Translations under genes and position numbers: made by a program | Notes under the pieces: model-generated | Told to the model about the DNA's origin: nothing | What the model saw: the letters and a program-made list of their open reading frames with translations, nothing else | Databases searched by the model: none | Source: Clostridiales bacterium | Lineage (GTDB): Bacteria; Bacillota; Clostridia; Saccharofermentanales; Saccharofermentanaceae | NCBI GenBank assembly: GCA_017561715.1 | Contig: JAFZBN010000015.1 | Location: forward strand, 434,001-498,000 | Length of the DNA stretch: 64,000 nucleotides | Direction of reading: 5' to 3' | In this document: piece by piece, positions 2,053 through 11,054 of the stretch | Numbering within the stretch: position 1 is the first letter of the stretch | How the letters are laid out: the number at the start of each line of letters is the position of its first letter

Positions 2053-2901
2053 TTATCTCACTTCTTTTTCGAGTTCTTCGATCTTCGAAAGAAGGTCAGC
2101 ATTCGCATTTTTCAATGTCTCGATCTCTTCTTCCGTCATCAGCTTATCTTTTCCGCCGTCGGCCGAGTGTCTCCAGGCCGACTCATCCATAACGATCGAG
2201 CTTTCTTCTCCGTCCGAAAGCCATCTAAAAAAATGGGCGAGACCAAGAAAGATAAAGAGCATAGACACCAGCGAGAAAATAAACATTACAATGAAAGTAT
2301 CTCTATCGTAATGACCGTTTTCATCGGTGAATTTGAGCGCCAAAAAGAACGCCGCGACCACACCGAACACGCCCCATACCCACAGTCCTCCGGATTCATG
2401 GACGGCGTTTTTAAGAGAAGGAAGTTTCGCCATTTTCCCCTCTTTTTGCACCTTCTCGATCTGCCTCTTTTTCGCACGGTCACTCATTCCGGTAAGGATC
2501 GATATACTGTTTCTGCTATACTGATCGATCTTTTTGACAAGTACCTTCTTTTCCTCGGGAAGCTCCTCTTCAAGCTTCTTAAAAGATTCATGGTTCAATA
2601 TCTTCTCGAAATAACTCGTGTCTTTCGGATTTTTCGTGAGAAGCTCACTTAAGCTTTTACTTTGGAAACTACAGTAAGCAGAGCGAAGTGTAAGTTTCGG
2701 ATCCGGTTCATCCGAGAGTTTTCTCATCTCAACGACATAACGGGATGCCTTGCCGAACTGATCGTTTTCGATCGCCTGATCGATCATTTCGATCGTTACT
2801 TCATCTACCTCTTCCCGTCCGCAGAAAGGACAGACGATCTTCTTAGAAATAGGATCGAATTTGAGGTTCGCGCCACACTTCGCACAATTTAATTCCTGCA
2901 T
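2053..2901 (-). CDS. Zinc-ribbon membrane protein of unknown function
   Basis: From the chosen start the protein is 282 residues: MQELNCAKCGANL, a CxxC-(15)-CPFCG zinc ribbon in the first 30 residues, a helical region, two membrane helices near the middle (WVWGVFGVVAAFFLALKF and FIVMFIFSLVSMLFIFLGL), and a C-terminal coiled coil (LLSKIEELEKEV). An upstream in-frame ATG at 2949 has no ribosome site, whereas the ATG at 2901 is preceded by GGGGGAAG at correct spacing, so I use the latter. The ribbon resembles those of the zinc-ribbon/TPR proteins common in Clostridia, one of which also lies at 19.9-21.2 kb. Function is unknown. Confidence 0.75.
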   Translation of the reverse strand: MQELNCAKCGANLKFDPISKKIVCPFCGREEVDEVTIEMIDQAIENDQFGKASRYVVEMRKLSDEPDPKLTLRSAYCSFQSKSLSELLTKNPKDTSYFEKILNHESFKKLEEELPEEKKVLVKKIDQYSRNSISILTGMSDRAKKRQIEKVQKEGKMAKLPSLKNAVHESGGLWVWGVFGVVAAFFLALKFTDENGHYDRDTFIVMFIFSLVSMLFIFLGLAHFFRWLSDGEESSIVMDESAWRHSADGGKDKLMTEEEIETLKNANADLLSKIEELEKEVR

Positions 2902-3072: not shown

Positions 3073-4560
3073 TTAAGATGCGAAGTCTGATCTATCGTCC
3101 ATCAGGAATCCGAATCCTTCGCCGTCTGCGAGCAGATGAGCGTTATTTATGTAGCACCCGTAATTGAGATTTACGTTATACACGGATTCGTCGATATCTT
3201 GAAGAATGAGCCTTACAAATCCTTCGCCCAGCAAGAGAGTTCCTTCTTTGTAGAATGTCTCTCCCGGATCGATCACTCCGTTTCCGTTTGCGTCGTGCTC
3301 ATACGAAGTGTGGAATACTGCGGTGTCACCATCGATCCTGATCTCGGACCAATCCATGCAAACACCATCGCCCCTATAGAAGCAGACCCATATATAACCG
3401 TCTCTTACAGCATAAAGTCCCATATTGCTCCATGAGCCGTATTCTCTATATACTCCGTTGTAGACACTGTAATCGTCGATCTGTGTTTTCACCCGTTCAT
3501 AACTGTATCCTTCGTTATCGACAATACTGAACGTGTCCATGATCTGCCCGTCTGCCGGATACCTCAGATATAAAGCTTCCTGCGGGAGATTCCCGGACTG
3601 AAGATACGCTTTCATTGTGGCCGGATCGTCCTGACCCATAAGTACAAATCTCGGCGTATCGGAATCACAAGCGATATACTCTCCGCCCTGATGATAGATC
3701 ATGGAATCCATTGACTGCTGGAACACCGAAAATCTGTAAAGGCTGCCGTCATCATATCTCTGCGTTTGATAGTGTTCGATATAATATCCGTACGGTTCAT
3801 AGCAGAAGAATGAGTCGTATCCTGCGTCCGCGACCACGTGATCGAGCACGATCTGGATATGCTTATCTCTAAATGTATAGACCGTCAGGTCAAAGTCATT
3901 CGGCCGGTCATCCCAGAAGCGCGATACAACGAGCTCCGGAGTATCATCCCATCCGATATAAGCGATGGAGTATCTGACCTTATCCGCAGTAGTCTGGTCG
4001 AGGTCTTCGACGATCTTCAGATAGGCCTGCTCGTAGCAGTAGAAGACCTTATCCTTATAAGACGCTGTTTCCGTGTTTTCTTCTGCAGGTACTGCCGGAG
4101 CCTCAGCCGGTGTTTCTTCCTGTTTCGGCTCGGAATGCGCCGGTGTATTTTCCTTCGGTGCAGACGGTGTCTGTGCCGGTGTTTCCTTCGTCTGAGCAGG
4201 CATCGGGCCTGCGTCATTTTCAGGTGCAAATTCAGAAGGGGCAGGCATTGGACCCGCGTCGTTCTCAGGTGTGAATCCGGAAGGATCCGAGGCCGCGCCT
4301 GCGTTATCCGATGGGCGGATGACCTGCTGTCCTTCCGCATCCGAAGGCTGCTGTTCTCTAGTCGCGTTCATGACCTCGCCCTGCGCGTTCGTGTTTTCCT
4401 GTGTCTCGTCCGGTACGACCTGAACATTTTCAGCGAGACTGGAAAGAATGCTCTCGATCTGCTTGGTGTCTCCGTCGAACTTCAGTGTACATCCGGTACC
4501 GGCCAGAGCCATCGTTGCCGTAAGAGCTGTAAGTACCATCTTTATCTTCATCGATTTCAT
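3073..4560 (-). CDS. Lipoprotein sharing its sensor-like domain with the adjacent M56 protease
   Basis: A 495-residue lipoprotein. The signal peptide ends in the lipobox LAGTGC (Cys at residue 24). A long Pro/Glu/Ala-rich linker (about 60-165) contains two near-copies of APSEFAPENDAGPMPA. The C-terminal 330 residues are clearly homologous to residues 413-755 of the M56 protein encoded next door, sharing IGWDDTPEL, FWDDRP, FDL..YTFR, CYEP and NVNLNYG. Both end with a D-x-N-G-x-G/D-x-I-D-P-G-E-T-F-Y segment that looks like a calcium-binding loop. The promoter carries BlaI-type palindromes, so repression by the BlaI-like protein is likely. The product may be a surface ligand binder or decoy; no enzyme motif is visible. 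Confidence 0.85.
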   Translation of the reverse strand: MKSMKIKMVLTALTATMALAGTGCTLKFDGDTKQIESILSSLAENVQVVPDETQENTNAQGEVMNATREQQPSDAEGQQVIRPSDNAGAASDPSGFTPENDAGPMPAPSEFAPENDAGPMPAQTKETPAQTPSAPKENTPAHSEPKQEETPAEAPAVPAEENTETASYKDKVFYCYEQAYLKIVEDLDQTTADKVRYSIAYIGWDDTPELVVSRFWDDRPNDFDLTVYTFRDKHIQIVLDHVVADAGYDSFFCYEPYGYYIEHYQTQRYDDGSLYRFSVFQQSMDSMIYHQGGEYIACDSDTPRFVLMGQDDPATMKAYLQSGNLPQEALYLRYPADGQIMDTFSIVDNEGYSYERVKTQIDDYSVYNGVYREYGSWSNMGLYAVRDGYIWVCFYRGDGVCMDWSEIRIDGDTAVFHTSYEHDANGNGVIDPGETFYKEGTLLLGEGFVRLILQDIDESVYNVNLNYGCYINNAHLLADGEGFGFLMDDRSDFAS

Positions 4561-4631
4561 TGTATTTATCCTCCGATAAAACTAATCTCTTGCTTGTTTT
4601 TTGTAGATATCTTTTGCAACATTGCAAGGTC

Positions 4632-4660
4632 ATTCTACACATGTAGTACACCCGTGTCAA
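4632..4660 (-). promoter_or_regulatory. Promoter of the lipoprotein gene
   Basis: On the minus strand TTGACA (4660-4655) and TAGAAT (4637-4632) are separated by exactly 17 bases. The BlaI-type palindrome at 4635-4646 overlaps the -10, so binding would block RNA polymerase. The arrangement is the same as at the blaI promoter. Confidence 0.85.
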
Positions 4661-4702
4661 TAGATTTTTCTACATTTGTAGAAAAATTTTCTATATTTGT
4701 AG
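4635..4702. promoter_or_regulatory. Three BlaI/MecI-type operators
   Basis: Three 12-base sites with the dyad CTACA-NN-TGTAG: 4635-4646 (perfect), 4670-4681 (perfect) and 4691-4702 (one mismatch). They match the TACANNTGTA core known for BlaI/MecI operators. One covers the -10 and two lie upstream of the -35, which allows co-operative repression. Confidence 0.82.
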
Positions 4703-4735
4703 AATTTTACCAAACGAAAAGCACCTTCCGCCCAT

Positions 4736-4776
4736 AAAAACAGGCTGTCTCCCGATACTTCTTCGGAGGACAGCCC
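4736..4776 (-). terminator. Terminator of the BlaI-M56 operon
   Basis: Stem GGCTGTC/GACAGCC extended by a TCC/GGA pairing with one bulge, followed on the minus strand by TGTTTTT. It lies about 50 bases beyond the M56 stop. Confidence 0.7.
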
Positions 4777-4826
4777 ATTATTAATTTATTTAATATCCTA
4801 TCGGGAAGGCCAAGCTCGCACCCTTA

Positions 4827-7094
4827 CTAAAAAGGAGCCTTGCTATCCATACTGAAAGTGTAAAACTCCTCGTCCTCGATCAGATACGCCCCGTTGACTC
4901 TGACGCCGTAATTGAGGTTTACGTTATACTCGGATTCGTCGAGATTTTCAAATGTGAGCTTTACTTCTTCGTCGCCGAGCTCGAGAGTCATTTTTCTGTA
5001 GAAGGTCTCGCCGGGATCGATCGATCCGTTTCCGTCTACGTCGTAATCAAACGTAAAGTGAGACATGGCGACGTTATCTATCAGCCGGACCTCGGACCAC
5101 TCCATGGATATATCCTGGATCTTACTGAAACAGACCCAGATATAACCGTCTCTAGCGGTATAAAGTCCCAGTTCCATCATGGTATTGGAATTTGTATATA
5201 CCCCGTCGTACTTACTGAATGCATTGACGGTGGTGGCCGCAGGATCAGCATTTCCCGAATCGGTCGTTGTATCAGCAGGCGCCGTGACATCCGGAAGCGT
5301 TTCGTAGGTCTCGTTCGATGAAGACTGCGACGGATCATAAGAGTTCGGATAAAGATGCGGACGATCGATCCAATAATTTCCTTCATGCGGAAGTTCGCCG
5401 GACTGCAGATATCCGATCATGGTTTTGGCGCTGTCATACCCGGCAAGGACAATGTCCGGTGTTTCATATGAATAAGTGACATAATCTCCGCCCGAGTTAT
5501 AGAGCCATTCATCCATCGTCCTCTGACAAACATTATAGGGCTGCGTATCCGGTCCTTCGCTGTCCGTGACTATCCAGTATTCGCAGATATAATCACCATG
5601 CGGCTCATAGCAGTAGAACATCCTGGATCCGAAATCCGCGACCGCCTGATCGATGATCTTATAAACACGGTCGACCCGGAACGTATAGACAAACAGGTCG
5701 AAATCATCCGGTCTGTCGTCCCAGAACTGCGAAACGATGAGCTCCGGCGTATCGTCCCATCCGATATTCACGATCGAATACTTCACGTGATCGTTTTCCT
5801 CACCACCGAACGATTCAATGACACCCAGATACGCGTCTTCGAAGCAGGTGTAACGGTTTGCCCTTGTCGACTCCGTAGGCTCTTCTGTCTCACTCGGTGT
5901 CGTAGTCGCTTCTGTCGTCGGCTCCGTTGTCTCCGTCGTCTCCGAAGCTTCAGGCGCTACTTCTTCCACGGCTTCTTCCCTTTGTCCCGCGCGGTCGAGA
6001 TAATCCTCGACCATGGAGCCGTTACTTCTTGAAGATACTAAGAATACGACGCTGAAGGTAACGACGATAGAAAGGATCGTCATGACCTTTGAGATGTGCT
6101 TGCTCTTAAGAAGGTTCTTGATGCGAAGCTTGGTCTCCATGCCGCCGAATCCCAGGCCGCTGAACGCCGTATTCTGAAGGAACGACCCTCTTCTGTCAGC
6201 CTCCGCGTGCTTGACCAAAGACATGCAGTATTCCTTGATCATATCCAGATCAAAAAGCTCCGTGGTCTCTTCATCAACGCGCATCTCGATGTCCGCGCAC
6301 AGCATGATGAACGAAAGCCACACGAGCGGATTGAACCAGTGAATGCACAGTACGAAATAGCTGAACAGCTTGATCACGCCGTCTTTGTTCTTGATATGTG
6401 TCCACTCGTGATTGAGGATATATTCTTTTTCGTCATCGTCAAAATGGATCGGGATAAAGATCTTCGGGCTGATAAAGCCGATAACAAAAGGTGTCGCGAT
6501 CCTTGTCTCGAAGTACTTGCCGTCGTAGGACTTTGAGTCCCATCTTGCCTTAGAGTAGAACATCAGGTAGCGGACGGTAAAAAGGATCACGAGCCCCGCC
6601 ATGACAAGAAGCCAGATATCGGCAAGGATACGGATCGTAAGCGCCGCTTTACCGGTCAGCGGTCCCGAAGAAGCATCGGCAGTAACCACCGGTCTTCCCG
6701 CTTCCGCCGCGGCACCACCTTCCGAAGAAGAAGGCAGATCCGAAGAGACAGCGCCGCCATTATCGGAGATCGCGCCGTCCTGCCCGACGATTCCGCCGTC
6801 CTGCGGCAGTGTCACATTATCGATGTCTGTATTGGAAATAGTATCCCCCGCCTCATCAGAAACGACTTCGACCTTTTCGGTGTCGGAACCGGAGAACAGT
6901 TTCCCGACATTCATAAGGCTCGACGGGGATGTAAAGTTAAAAGGTATAACAAGTCGGACCGCGACCGCGATCCAGAATACGATCAGAACGCGCTTGGGAA
7001 GGTTTTTGAAGATGAGACGAAATAGCAGAACGGCAAGGATCGCAATGCTGCCGTAAAGGCTCATCTCAAGTATCTTGGCAAATATCACGTTCAT
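4827..7094 (-). CDS. M56 family (BlaR1-like) membrane metalloprotease with a novel C-terminal sensor domain
   Basis: A 755-residue protein. N-terminal helices (about 5-28 and 36-52) are followed by a low-complexity outside loop (about 60-145), a helix at 157-178, the zinc-protease motif HEWTH at 229-233, another hydrophobic segment (about 243-265) and a last helix at 336-354. This is the BlaR1/MecR1 M56 architecture. In place of the penicillin-binding sensor, a Thr/Glu-rich linker (371-412) leads to a 340-residue domain paralogous to the adjacent lipoprotein. By analogy with BlaR1, signal binding outside would trigger cytoplasmic proteolysis that inactivates the BlaI-like repressor encoded 16 bases upstream. 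No beta-lactamase or PBP2a gene is nearby, so the signal is probably not a beta-lactam. Confidence 0.88.
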   Translation of the reverse strand: MNVIFAKILEMSLYGSIAILAVLLFRLIFKNLPKRVLIVFWIAVAVRLVIPFNFTSPSSLMNVGKLFSGSDTEKVEVVSDEAGDTISNTDIDNVTLPQDGGIVGQDGAISDNGGAVSSDLPSSSEGGAAAEAGRPVVTADASSGPLTGKAALTIRILADIWLLVMAGLVILFTVRYLMFYSKARWDSKSYDGKYFETRIATPFVIGFISPKIFIPIHFDDDEKEYILNHEWTHIKNKDGVIKLFSYFVLCIHWFNPLVWLSFIMLCADIEMRVDEETTELFDLDMIKEYCMSLVKHAEADRRGSFLQNTAFSGLGFGGMETKLRIKNLLKSKHISKVMTILSIVVTFSVVFLVSSRSNGSMVEDYLDRAGQREEAVEEVAPEASETTETTEPTTEATTTPSETEEPTESTRANRYTCFEDAYLGVIESFGGEENDHVKYSIVNIGWDDTPELIVSQFWDDRPDDFDLFVYTFRVDRVYKIIDQAVADFGSRMFYCYEPHGDYICEYWIVTDSEGPDTQPYNVCQRTMDEWLYNSGGDYVTYSYETPDIVLAGYDSAKTMIGYLQSGELPHEGNYWIDRPHLYPNSYDPSQSSSNETYETLPDVTAPADTTTDSGNADPAATTVNAFSKYDGVYTNSNTMMELGLYTARDGYIWVCFSKIQDISMEWSEVRLIDNVAMSHFTFDYDVDGNGSIDPGETFYRKMTLELGDEEVKLTFENLDESEYNVNLNYGVRVNGAYLIEDEEFYTFSMDSKAPF

Positions 7095-7110
7095 TTTTCT
7101 TCGAAGTGCC

Positions 7111-7476
7111 TCAGTCCTTGGTATGCTTCTCGATCATCTCGATGAGCTTTTGCGCATCGTCGCGGCTTAAGTTCTTCTCGCCGCCCAGAAAAGCATTGAC
7201 GAAACTCGGAAGCGAGCCCTTAAAGCTTCTCTCCACGAGTTCATTGCTCTGCTGATGCTGTACCTCCTCGCGACGCACAAGATACGTGATCTTGGCCTTG
7301 TTATTCGCGATGAAGCCCTTATCGCAGAGCCTTTTGATCATGGTATAAACAGTCGTTTTCTTCCATCCGTGAACCTTTTCACAGATGTCCGAAAGCTCGC
7401 CGGAAGAGATCGGGGCATACTCCCAGATCAGCTCCATCAGTTTGTATTCACTTTCACCAATAGAATAGTCTTTCAC
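7111..7476 (-). CDS. BlaI/MecI family winged-helix repressor
   Basis: A 121-residue protein with the typical BlaI layout: an N-terminal winged helix containing ELMELIWEYAPIS-like and WKKTTVYTMIKRLCDKGFI segments, and a C-terminal dimerisation region. It binds DNA as a dimer and is cleaved when its M56 partner is activated (known for the family). The start is GTG at 7476 with AAGGAG seven bases upstream; no better ATG exists. Its promoter carries its own operators, so it is autorepressed. It is co-transcribed with the M56 gene. Confidence 0.93.
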   Translation of the reverse strand: MKDYSIGESEYKLMELIWEYAPISSGELSDICEKVHGWKKTTVYTMIKRLCDKGFIANNKAKITYLVRREEVQHQQSNELVERSFKGSLPSFVNAFLGGEKNLSRDDAQKLIEMIEKHTKD

Positions 7477-7511: not shown

Positions 7512-7540
7512 ATTCTACATGTGTAGAGCAACATTGTCAA
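7512..7540 (-). promoter_or_regulatory. Promoter of the blaI-M56 operon
   Basis: On the minus strand TTGACA (7540-7535), a 17-base spacer and TAGAAT (7517-7512): the same boxes and spacing as the lipoprotein promoter, with an operator overlapping the -10. Confidence 0.88.
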
Positions 7541-7560
7541 CTCTTATTCTATTTATGTAG
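7515..7560. promoter_or_regulatory. BlaI/MecI-type operators upstream of blaI
   Basis: A perfect CTACA-NN-TGTAG dyad at 7515-7526 and a degenerate copy at 7549-7560 (two mismatches in one arm). The perfect site overlaps the -10 of the blaI promoter; the weaker one lies upstream of the -35. Confidence 0.82.
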
Positions 7561-8384: not shown

Positions 8385-9311
8385 ATGTTTGAATCCTGTT
8401 GGGATATACTCGGAATTGGCATAACGACCGATAAGCTGGAGATCAAGAAGGCCTTTGCGAAGCTTGCCCATCAGATCTCCCCGGAAGACGATCCCGACGG
8501 CTACAGACGTATCCATACCGCCTATAAGCAGGCTCTGGAATATGCTTCCCACGCGAAAGATCCGAAAAGAAGAAACGGCGAGATCCCCGGCGCGGGTATT
8601 ACGATTTCTCGTCGCGTCCTCCCATACCAAGGAACCAAATTCCCCAAACAGGAAGATGCGGCCGAAGAATCAGAAGCAGAGAAAGAAAATGAAGGCTTTG
8701 ACTTCACTTCTGTCGAAAAGCCGGATCTGAATAAGAAAAGCAAGAAGGCAAAAGTGCCCCCGCGTCCCTCTTCCCGCACGCAAGTCCCAAAAGAAGACGA
8801 CGAGAAAAAGCAGAGCTTTGACTTCTCCCCGATCGTTCAGGAAGAAAAGCAGTTCTCCGACGAAATCGAAAGGATCATCGAGCAGATCGTAACGTACAAG
8901 GAAGAAAACGGTATCGACACTCCCGAGAACGTCAAACGCTGGAAGGTCACGACACTCGACATGCACGGCATGAAGCTTCTTAAGCTCTATGGTTCACTCT
9001 TTATGAGATCCGGCGAGACCTCTACCTGGAATGTCTTTTTCAAAGAGCCTCTCATGAAGCAGATGCTCTATAACCAGGACTTCCGTCATAAGATCAGGAC
9101 ATACTTTCCTTCGGGCAGCGAATCGAGGACAAAGATCGAAGAACTGATCGAGGAATTCGAGGATCAGCTCGCGTTAGAAGAAGCCGAACGCGAAAAAACA
9201 TTGACTGAAAAAGATAAGAAAGAGCAGATCGTAATCGCGTGCCTCGTAGTCTTCGGCATATTCTTTATATTCGCGCTCGAATTATTCCTACAAATGATCC
9301 ACAGACACTAG
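8385..9311 (+). CDS. Degenerate J-domain protein with C-terminal membrane anchor
   Basis: A 308-residue protein. Residues 1-60 read like a DnaJ J-domain (WDILGIGITTDKLEIKKAFAK, then YRRIHTAYKQALEYA). The HPD tripeptide that stimulates Hsp70 is not intact; the loop reads HQISPEDDPDG. A charged, low-complexity middle (about 85-150) follows, then a helical domain and a terminal hydrophobic helix (about 284-302) ending in RH, giving a tail-anchored topology with the J-like domain in the cytoplasm. It lies 72 bases upstream of an Hsp70 gene on the same strand, which strongly suggests a dedicated co-chaperone pair. The client is unknown. Confidence 0.75.
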   Translation: MFESCWDILGIGITTDKLEIKKAFAKLAHQISPEDDPDGYRRIHTAYKQALEYASHAKDPKRRNGEIPGAGITISRRVLPYQGTKFPKQEDAAEESEAEKENEGFDFTSVEKPDLNKKSKKAKVPPRPSSRTQVPKEDDEKKQSFDFSPIVQEEKQFSDEIERIIEQIVTYKEENGIDTPENVKRWKVTTLDMHGMKLLKLYGSLFMRSGETSTWNVFFKEPLMKQMLYNQDFRHKIRTYFPSGSESRTKIEELIEEFEDQLALEEAEREKTLTEKDKKEQIVIACLVVFGIFFIFALELFLQMIHRH

Positions 9312-9383
9312 AAGCACAATGACACTTACGAACAGAACAATGTATAATCAGGAAAAGATGGCAAAAGTGATAAGGGGGTCCAT

Positions 9384-11054
9384 ATGGCGATCATAGGTAT
9401 CGATCTCGGAACAACAAACAGTCTGGCAGCACAGTACACAACAGAGGGTGTCAAGATCCTCCGCAATTCTTCGGGAAATGCACTGATCCCTTCCGTTGTC
9501 GGTCTGGATGACGACGGGAACATCATCGTCGGCGAAGTGGCAAAAGAAAGACTCATCACGCATCCGGATCTGACGGTTTCGGAATTCAAGCGCACCATGG
9601 GTACCGATCTTCTCTATGAACTCGGTACCCAGAAGTATACTTCCCAGCAGCTCTCCTCGATCCTTCTGAAGAAGATCGTCGCGGATGCAAAAGAGATCAT
9701 CGGCGAGGAGATCGAAGAAGTCATCATCAGCGTTCCCGCCTACTTTGACGAGCGCATGAGAACGGCCACGAAACAGGCGGCAGAGCTTGCGGGCATTAAG
9801 TGCGAGCGTCTCATCAACGAGCCTTCCGCGGCAGCTCTTGCCTATCTTCACAAGCACGAATGGAAAGACGGCACCTACATGGTCGTCGACTTCGGCGGCG
9901 GAACGCTCGACGTATCCATTATCGATTCTTTTGACAGTATCATGGAGATCATTGCCGTAGCCGGCAACAACCAGCTCGGTGGCAAGGATTTTAACGAAGC
10001 GATCTATAACCATTTCTGTGTGAGCAACGGACTTAACAGCGAAGATCTGACACCTGAACAGCAGGCGATCATCTACAGAATGGCAGAAGCTACGAAGATC
10101 GCCCTTTCCACAAACGCGATCGCGAATATGACCGTTGTCATCAACGAGGAAAAATACTCGCTGACGATGGATAACAACGAGCTCATCAAGATCGCGCACG
10201 ATGTCTTTGAAAAGATCGTCGTCCCTATCAAGAAAGTTCTGAAGGACAGCCGTCTGCACCCGTCCGACCTTGAGGCGATCGTTCTTGTCGGAGGCAGCTG
10301 CAAGATGCCGACCGTCGCGGCCTTTATCGAAGATGTGACCGGTGTAAAACCCAGTACGGACATCAACCCCGATACCGCCATCGCCATCGGCGCGGGCGTC
10401 TACACGGGCATTAAGGCCAAAAACCAGGAACTGAAGGATATCGTCATGACAGACATCTGCCCCTTCTCACTTGGTGTCAACTGCAGAGACGACAACAAAG
10501 AGATCACGATGTCCTTCATTATCGAGAGAAACTCCATGCTCCCATGCAGTGCCTCCCGTGATTACTATGCCGTTAAAGACCGCCAGACGGAAGTGACCTT
10601 TAAGATCTATCAGGGCGAGAGCATTATCCCCGAGAACAACATCTTCCTCGGCGAGATGAAGATCAGCTGTCCTCCGACCCGGGAACACGAATTCGTGGCC
10701 ACGGTCCGTATGACATATGACATCAACGGCATCCTGATCGTCGATATCACGAACAAAGAGAAAAAGACCGTAAGTAAGGTCATGCTCGATAAAAAAGTCC
10801 ATCTGTCGGAAAAGGAGATCGAGCAGATCAAAGGAAAACTCGATAAGCTTCGTTTCAGTGAAAACAAGGACGAAGAGGAGCAGCTCCTGATCTCGAAGAC
10901 CGAGCGTATGATCGAAGAGACCATGGGCTTTGACAGAGAGCGCTTCATCGAAGCACTTGAGCGCTTCAAGTTCATCATGAAAAACGGCAACACCATCGAG
11001 AAAAGAAAAGCCAAGGAGTTCCTAAGCAATCTCCTTGACCAGTACGAAGAGTGA
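9384..11054 (+). CDS. Hsp70 family chaperone, DnaK-like, shortened C-terminus
   Basis: A 556-residue Hsp70 homologue. The actin-like ATPase domain is complete: phosphate-1 loop GIDLGTTNSLAA near residue 5, phosphate-2 VVDFGGGTLDVSI near 170, and adenosine motif IVLVGGSCKMPTV near 300. A beta-sandwich substrate-binding domain and a short helical lid follow. It is 50-60 residues shorter than housekeeping DnaK and lacks the usual glycine-rich tail, so this is a specialised paralogue. Ribosome site AAGGGGG. The neighbouring J-like protein is its likely partner. No CIRCE element or grpE is present here. Confidence 0.92.
   Translation: MAIIGIDLGTTNSLAAQYTTEGVKILRNSSGNALIPSVVGLDDDGNIIVGEVAKERLITHPDLTVSEFKRTMGTDLLYELGTQKYTSQQLSSILLKKIVADAKEIIGEEIEEVIISVPAYFDERMRTATKQAAELAGIKCERLINEPSAAALAYLHKHEWKDGTYMVVDFGGGTLDVSIIDSFDSIMEIIAVAGNNQLGGKDFNEAIYNHFCVSNGLNSEDLTPEQQAIIYRMAEATKIALSTNAIANMTVVINEEKYSLTMDNNELIKIAHDVFEKIVVPIKKVLKDSRLHPSDLEAIVLVGGSCKMPTVAAFIEDVTGVKPSTDINPDTAIAIGAGVYTGIKAKNQELKDIVMTDICPFSLGVNCRDDNKEITMSFIIERNSMLPCSASRDYYAVKDRQTEVTFKIYQGESIIPENNIFLGEMKISCPPTREHEFVATVRMTYDINGILIVDITNKEKKTVSKVMLDKKVHLSEKEIEQIKGKLDKLRFSENKDEEEQLLISKTERMIEETMGFDRERFIEALERFKFIMKNGNTIEKRKAKEFLSNLLDQYEE

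Follow-up and report, generated by a model that had tools for sequence, protein, structure and literature searches.

In this study, we describe a BlaI-M56 gene pair that appears to watch the cell surface and to control a small set of lipoproteins, and whose sensor carries, as its outer part, a copy of the module that these lipoproteins display. Judged by sequence, the homology of sensor and lipoprotein and their predicted regulatory coupling are near certain, and a surface-recognition switch with exchangeable modules is the likely function. On balance, we favor the reading that this signaling unit controls surface lipoproteins displaying the sensor's module, with the lipoprotein acting both as the response and as the brake.

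The stretch of DNA analyzed here, called the window, comprises 64,000 nucleotides and belongs to a draft genome of 2.47 Mb (C18:434001-498000); the genomes of relatives used for comparison are mostly drafts too. Among the loci found, the closest relative was sampled from water-buffalo rumen: a Clostridiales metagenome-assembled genome, in which a contig scan led to one locus. The genes and protein features of the window locus are as follows:

7111..7476, minus strand: blaI, encoding a BlaI/MecI-type repressor (121 aa, GTG start; PF03965).
4827..7094, minus strand: M56 (BlaR1-like) membrane protease-sensor (755 aa; PF05569, E 1.5e-34).
6396..6410, minus strand: HEWTH zinc motif of the M56 sensor (aa 229-233).
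5355..5855, minus strand: sensor ectodomain part 1 (aa 414-580), of the WDDTPEL type.
4830..5246, minus strand: sensor ectodomain part 2 (aa 617-755), containing an EF-hand-like loop.
3073..4560, minus strand: lipoprotein (495 aa) with a lipobox at Cys24, a long Pro/Glu/Thr-rich linker, and the sensor-shared domain at aa 172-493.
4744..4776, minus strand: candidate hairpin plus T run between the M56 and lipoprotein genes, seen by eye.

The hairpin is probably a terminator; an automated hairpin scan gave no confirmation of it, as its loop exceeds the length used in the scan. Elsewhere in the window (8385-11054), a putative J-domain-like membrane protein is directly followed by a putative Hsp70-like protein of 556 aa.

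The repressor belongs to the Penicillinase_R family (PF03965; E 3e-24, 86 bits against a cut-off of 22.6) and matches the MecI structure PDB 1okr (E 4e-10), and all its NCBIfam scores as a named BlaI, MecI, or CopY equivalog lie below cut-off (the best being 53.7 vs. 180). BlaI of S. aureus is cleaved before Phe102 (PMC9834060). The surrounding motif (..LP.FV(N/S)AFLG..) is conserved here, and the Phe at the predicted cut position is kept in 11 BlaI proteins. The catalytic motifs of the sensor are intact, with EMRVD (EXXXD) at aa 270-274 accompanying the HEWTH motif, in line with the HEXXH/EXXXD definition reported for S. aureus BlaR1 (PMC9834060). Its hydrophobic segments, as judged from hydropathy, are positioned as in M56 proteins: 11-29, 36-54, 156-174, (247-265), and 337-355. 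The lipoprotein has a predicted signal peptide with the lipobox TATMALAGTGC, and this PS51257-like pattern occurs in 18 of the 18 lipoproteins checked.

A first-pass annotation of the window had proposed that the C-terminal domain of the sensor is homologous to the neighboring lipoprotein, and had named a lack of similarity in a proper alignment as grounds for giving up the idea. BLASTP bears the proposal out: the M56 ectodomain and the C-terminal part of the lipoprotein share 144 of 339 residues (42%, E=3e-87), and the alignment includes all the motifs listed there (IGWDDTPEL, FWDDRP, CYEP, and NVNLNYG) and a DxDxNGxIDPGE loop. The latter had been called calcium-loop-like. The loop itself stands, but its calcium reading draws only on EF-hand matches below threshold (PF13499; E 0.008, 16.9 bits, cut-off 30), which fall short of assigning the domain to the EF-hand family. 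In this genome, the shared domain is limited to two genes, those of the M56 sensor and the lipoprotein; the WDDTPEL-type domain of ectodomain part 1 is present in many other clostridial open reading frames as well. Searches of the shared domain against Pfam, NCBIfam, and PDB returned zero accepted matches, and its predicted structures were unusable (pLDDT 34 from one sequence and 35 from 4 sequences).

With BlaI, an M56 protease, and this operator type present, the locus might be taken for an ordinary beta-lactam-inducible BlaRI system. This explanation is scarcely credible: after aa 365 the sensor contains no SXXK and no KTG/KSG motif, it gives no transpeptidase Pfam match that would indicate a class D-like penicillin-binding domain, its score for the BlaR1 equivalog of NCBIfam (blaR1_generic) reaches 74.3 bits where the cut-off is 400, and no regulated gene was recognized as a beta-lactamase or PBP. 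The earlier statement that the sensor domain differs from the penicillin-binding domain of BlaR1/MecR1 is thus upheld. What the locus shares with the BlaR1-BlaI and MecR1-MecI systems of staphylococci and bacilli is the gene pair, the M56 gluzincin motifs, the winged-helix repressor, predicted dyad operators at the promoters of both the repressor and the target, and an outer C-terminal sensor domain. Unlike BlaR1 and MecR1, however, the window sensor has an outer domain that is neither penicillin-binding nor of class D and so lacks the defining sensor feature of that family, and the targets are surface lipoproteins with the sensor's module rather than a beta-lactamase or PBP2a.

The blaI and lipoprotein promoters each read TTGACA-17-TAGAAT, with a CTACANNNGTAG dyad across the spacer and the -10 box. 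The following elements are predicted:

7512..7540, minus strand: blaI promoter TTGACA-N8-CTACACATGTAGAAT, with the predicted operator dyad overlapping the -10 box.
7549..7560, minus strand: second, weaker predicted blaI operator box CTACATAAATAG (2 mismatches).
4632..4660, minus strand: lipoprotein promoter TTGACA-N8-CTACATGTGTAGAAT, with the predicted operator over the spacer and -10 box.
4670..4681, minus strand: second predicted lipoprotein operator CTACAAATGTAG, a BlaI-type box.
4691..4702, minus strand: third predicted lipoprotein operator CTACAAATATAG (1 mismatch).

These dyads (three boxes upstream of the lipoprotein and two upstream of blaI) are conserved in the relatives examined, and the weaker blaI box has an unchanged position in the same-genus relatives read. 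Across the genome, TTGACA-N8-CTACANNNGTAGAAT occurs in exactly 2 places, namely the blaI-M56 and lipoprotein promoters, with the next best sites having 3 mismatches; a reversed-pattern control over the whole genome gave 0. One more exact operator place, the third in the genome (C20), falls within a coding sequence and was set aside as chance. Judged by sequence, then, dyads are present at both promoters, as is characteristic of the BlaI/MecI family and as had been suggested for the lipoprotein promoter. That the sensor's BlaI probably controls the lipoprotein, another suggestion made at the outset, gains support from these operators, their genome-wide exclusivity, the family distribution, and the regulon content.

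Of 115 genomes in the family, 30 have this M56 clade; the operator-promoter was found in every one of these vs. 1 of the 85 others (Fisher p 8e-27, uncorrected for relatedness). Regulon content was read as the gene behind 72 operator-promoter sites in 29 genomes. Switch genes follow 26 of these sites (24 blaI and 2 M56). Another 29 lead to lipoproteins or exported proteins that bear a domain of a sensor type (8 of the window type and 21 of a second-genus type). Other lipoproteins account for 11 sites, 5 of them belonging to a third domain family; the remainder consists of 2 exported proteins of about 190 aa, 1 palindromic site read in reverse, and 3 sites without a readable gene. Apart from the switch genes, the regulon thus consists of surface lipoproteins. 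In one genome (G016), the sensor is present, and neither a lipoprotein gene nor an operator adjoins it.

Some regulons and loci have further peculiarities. Two genomes, G089 and G137 (L296-L306), have enlarged BlaI regulons of 7-8 operator-promoters over several contigs, nearly all upstream of lipoproteins. In G119 and G120 (L313:6488-10500 and L314:6629-14000), an operator-controlled lipoprotein adjoins an apparent sortase/pilin cluster, which in G120 lies between the sensor and its lipoprotein.

A paralog next door is common in this clade. A neighboring non-M56 paralog of the sensor was found in 20 of its 25 readable loci vs. 4 of 81 sensors in a class-wide control (Fisher p 2e-13, uncorrected for relatedness), which drew on 79 loci sampled across the class and was limited to M56 sensors whose ectodomain spans 100 aa or more. 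A general rule that such a paralog accompanies all clostridial M56 sensors was accordingly rejected. The five loci scored as negative are those of G016, G013, G089, G137, and G107; in the last, sensor and lipoprotein do have the domain in common but are located on different contigs. The clearest exception in the control (L242:6666-9604) comes from an unrelated clostridium, where an M56 ectodomain of 230 aa is paralogous to the adjacent lipoprotein (E 3e-67), with no matching operator upstream of that lipoprotein. Elsewhere (L247:4957-10766), two M56 genes in tandem have a common 516-residue ectodomain, which in the gene scanned matches DUF6034 (PF19499); L095 has a similar tandem with a different ectodomain.

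The same chassis carries other domains. Each of 12 loci from a second genus pairs an M56 gene with a neighboring lipoprotein that has a domain in common with it, and operator-promoters are present in the locus. The M56 protease part there has about 57-61% identity, and the shared domain of 230 residues, as a rule present in two copies in the lipoprotein and one at the sensor C-terminus, is unrelated to the window domain by profile comparison (hhalign 0.2%). A third domain, unrelated to both, forms the outer part of the G013 sensor and recurs, in five genomes of the other genus, in lipoproteins behind operator sites; in G013 itself, none of the operator sites precedes a gene with the sensor's domain type. 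Its resemblance by eye to RsiV (DUF3298) was unsupported by Pfam and PDB profiles and was dropped. In PDB profile searches, two of the three domain types gave no matches and the third only chance-level ones.

Two sensors of the same clade (G137 and G089) have a C-type lectin ectodomain (PF00059; 25.3 and 24.4 bits, cut-off 22.6), a recognized family, whereas the window's own domain falls into none:

L296:6471-8054: C-type lectin M56 sensor, PF00059 above cut-off.
L301:3816-5369: C-type lectin M56 sensor, PF00059 above cut-off.

The regulated lipoproteins of these two genomes lack the sensor's lectin domain. Three other genomes encode proteins that join the window-type ectodomain part 1 to a C-type lectin domain. 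Given such varied domains at the sensor C-terminus, the distal domain seems to be a recognition module open to exchange.

The feedback design had initially been thought to have no counterpart in described systems, which was too strong a statement. In C. thermocellum, the GH10 module of RsgI6 is 57% identical to the xylanase Xyn10D and binds xylan, and the sigma factor of RsgI6 activates the Xyn10D promoter (PMC4711584); class D beta-lactamases are in turn relatives of the BlaR1 sensor domain (PMC9834060). As in the SigI-RsgI pair RsgI6/Xyn10D (PMC4711584), the window encodes a membrane regulator whose outer domain has a paralog in an exported protein that it controls, the control here being deduced from operators. 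Unlike SigI-RsgI, it uses an M56 protease and a repressor instead of an anti-sigma and a sigma factor: a Pfam scan found no RsgI domain in the sensor, whose N-terminus is M56, which sets it apart from the anti-sigma/SigI class. The SigI-RsgI targets differ as well, being many cellulosomal enzymes elsewhere in the genome. Both precedents, together with the C-type lectin variant of the sensor, would fit RsgI-like substrate sensing, in which the lipoprotein is an effector that binds or processes a substrate and the sensor is an old copy serving as its detector, with no competition or brake. We hold this to be unlikely, as an enzyme family was recognized in none of the lipoproteins tested.

Small regulons also have a precedent. 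The BlaI regulons of C. thermocellum are very small, comprising blaI-blaR1 operons and hypothetical proteins with paired operators (DAP-seq, PMC8457756). The regulon described here is comparably tiny; the operator half-site is GTCTAT/GACTAT in C. thermocellum vs. TCTACA here. In the literature covered, with most subscription papers outside its scope, we found no description of a BlaI-M56 regulon whose lipoproteins have a module in common with the sensor.

Within the genus, identity is 75-80% in the protease part and 22-33% in the outer domains. The lipoprotein of the window has a mosaic structure: promoter and leader at the 5' end are 70-75% identical to the common lipoprotein type, and the domain clusters with that of its own sensor (support 100/99). 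AU tests reject one clade comprising all lipoproteins (p 5e-7) and likewise one clade of sensor domains in the second genus (p 2e-4). Compared with the closest relative, the distal tract of the sensor gene (about 4800-5250) has 78-82% nucleotide identity and a dS of 0.48, vs. mostly 95-99% and 0.03-0.14 in its flanks, which points to replacement by a divergent allele and not to selection on point mutations. Apart from this tract, 150 nt within the gene of a downstream zinc-ribbon-like 298-aa protein (window 2251-2400) are only 65% identical to the closest relative, most surrounding stretches being about 90-100% identical.

Gene conversion is common among neighboring genes. The mosaic could thus reflect a neutral history of local duplication and later conversion between neighbors, leaving a shared domain without functional meaning. 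Such a history is very unlikely: the pairing is retained in two genera with unrelated domains, domain-bearing regulated lipoproteins are found on other contigs as well, and a local paralog is rare among the other clostridial M56 sensors of the control.

Were every pair adapted to a ligand of its own, the lipoprotein most similar to a given sensor would as a rule be the one from the same genome. Sensor-lipoprotein identity in the second genus is 31.4% within the own genome vs. 30.3% with other genomes (permutation p 0.12), and a general rule of individual tuning is unsupported. The only exceptions are the window lineage (45% for its own pair vs. 29% or less), G060, and G129. In short, sharing of the domain type is conserved, and individual matching is not, except in these three. 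Since own pairs are usually no closer than cross-genome pairs, there is no general sign of a shared ligand with a fine match.

These figures also bear on a homotypic feedback without an outside ligand, in which the lipoprotein domain would bind the sensor domain, so that the sensor gauges the lipoprotein on the surface and switches off when there is enough. It would account for a regulon made up almost only of blaI-M56 and lipoproteins of the sensor's own domain types, as well as for a paired domain type that persists despite sequence drift. On the other hand, same-genome pairs are not specially similar, and the lectin domain of the G089 and G137 sensors is missing from the lipoproteins that they regulate; we regard this feedback as rather unlikely.

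Our favored reading, a ligand-responsive switch with the lipoprotein as response and brake, would operate as follows. In the resting state, BlaI would occupy the dyads that cover the -10 boxes, keeping both blaI-M56 and the lipoprotein gene off. Binding of an extracellular ligand to the outer domain of the sensor would activate the inner zinc protease, BlaI would be destroyed, and both units would be expressed. The induced lipoprotein would then offer the same type of module, in more copies and detached from the sensor, and would bind or handle the ligand, thereby responding to the signal and damping it. Gene order, homology, motifs, operators, regulon content, and the repeated exchange of outer modules can be read from the DNA; BlaI cleavage, activation by a ligand, a shared ligand, and the brake are what we infer. 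The competition of lipoprotein and sensor for one ligand, as proposed in the first-pass annotation, is possible. Four genomes weigh against the favored reading: G016, whose sensor has no lipoprotein neighbor, and G013, G089, and G137, whose operator sites do not precede lipoproteins with the sensor's domain. As a C-type lectin occupies the same place in two relatives, our best guess for the ligand is a glycan or a surface protein. More tentatively, recognition modules may be swapped as cassettes between the sensor and its controlled lipoproteins, giving on-demand display of the sensing domain, with a shared ligand or mutual binding closing the loop outside the cell.

The nearly closed regulon and the exact operator make it possible to list regulated surface proteins of uncultured bacteria from their DNA alone, and the paired domains make it directly testable whether a sensor has the same ligand as the product that it induces. 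If the favored reading is true, BlaR1-type sensing would no longer be a matter of antibiotics only. The protease-repressor core would rather be a general chassis, on which Clostridia of the rumen and gut mount fast-changing recognition domains.
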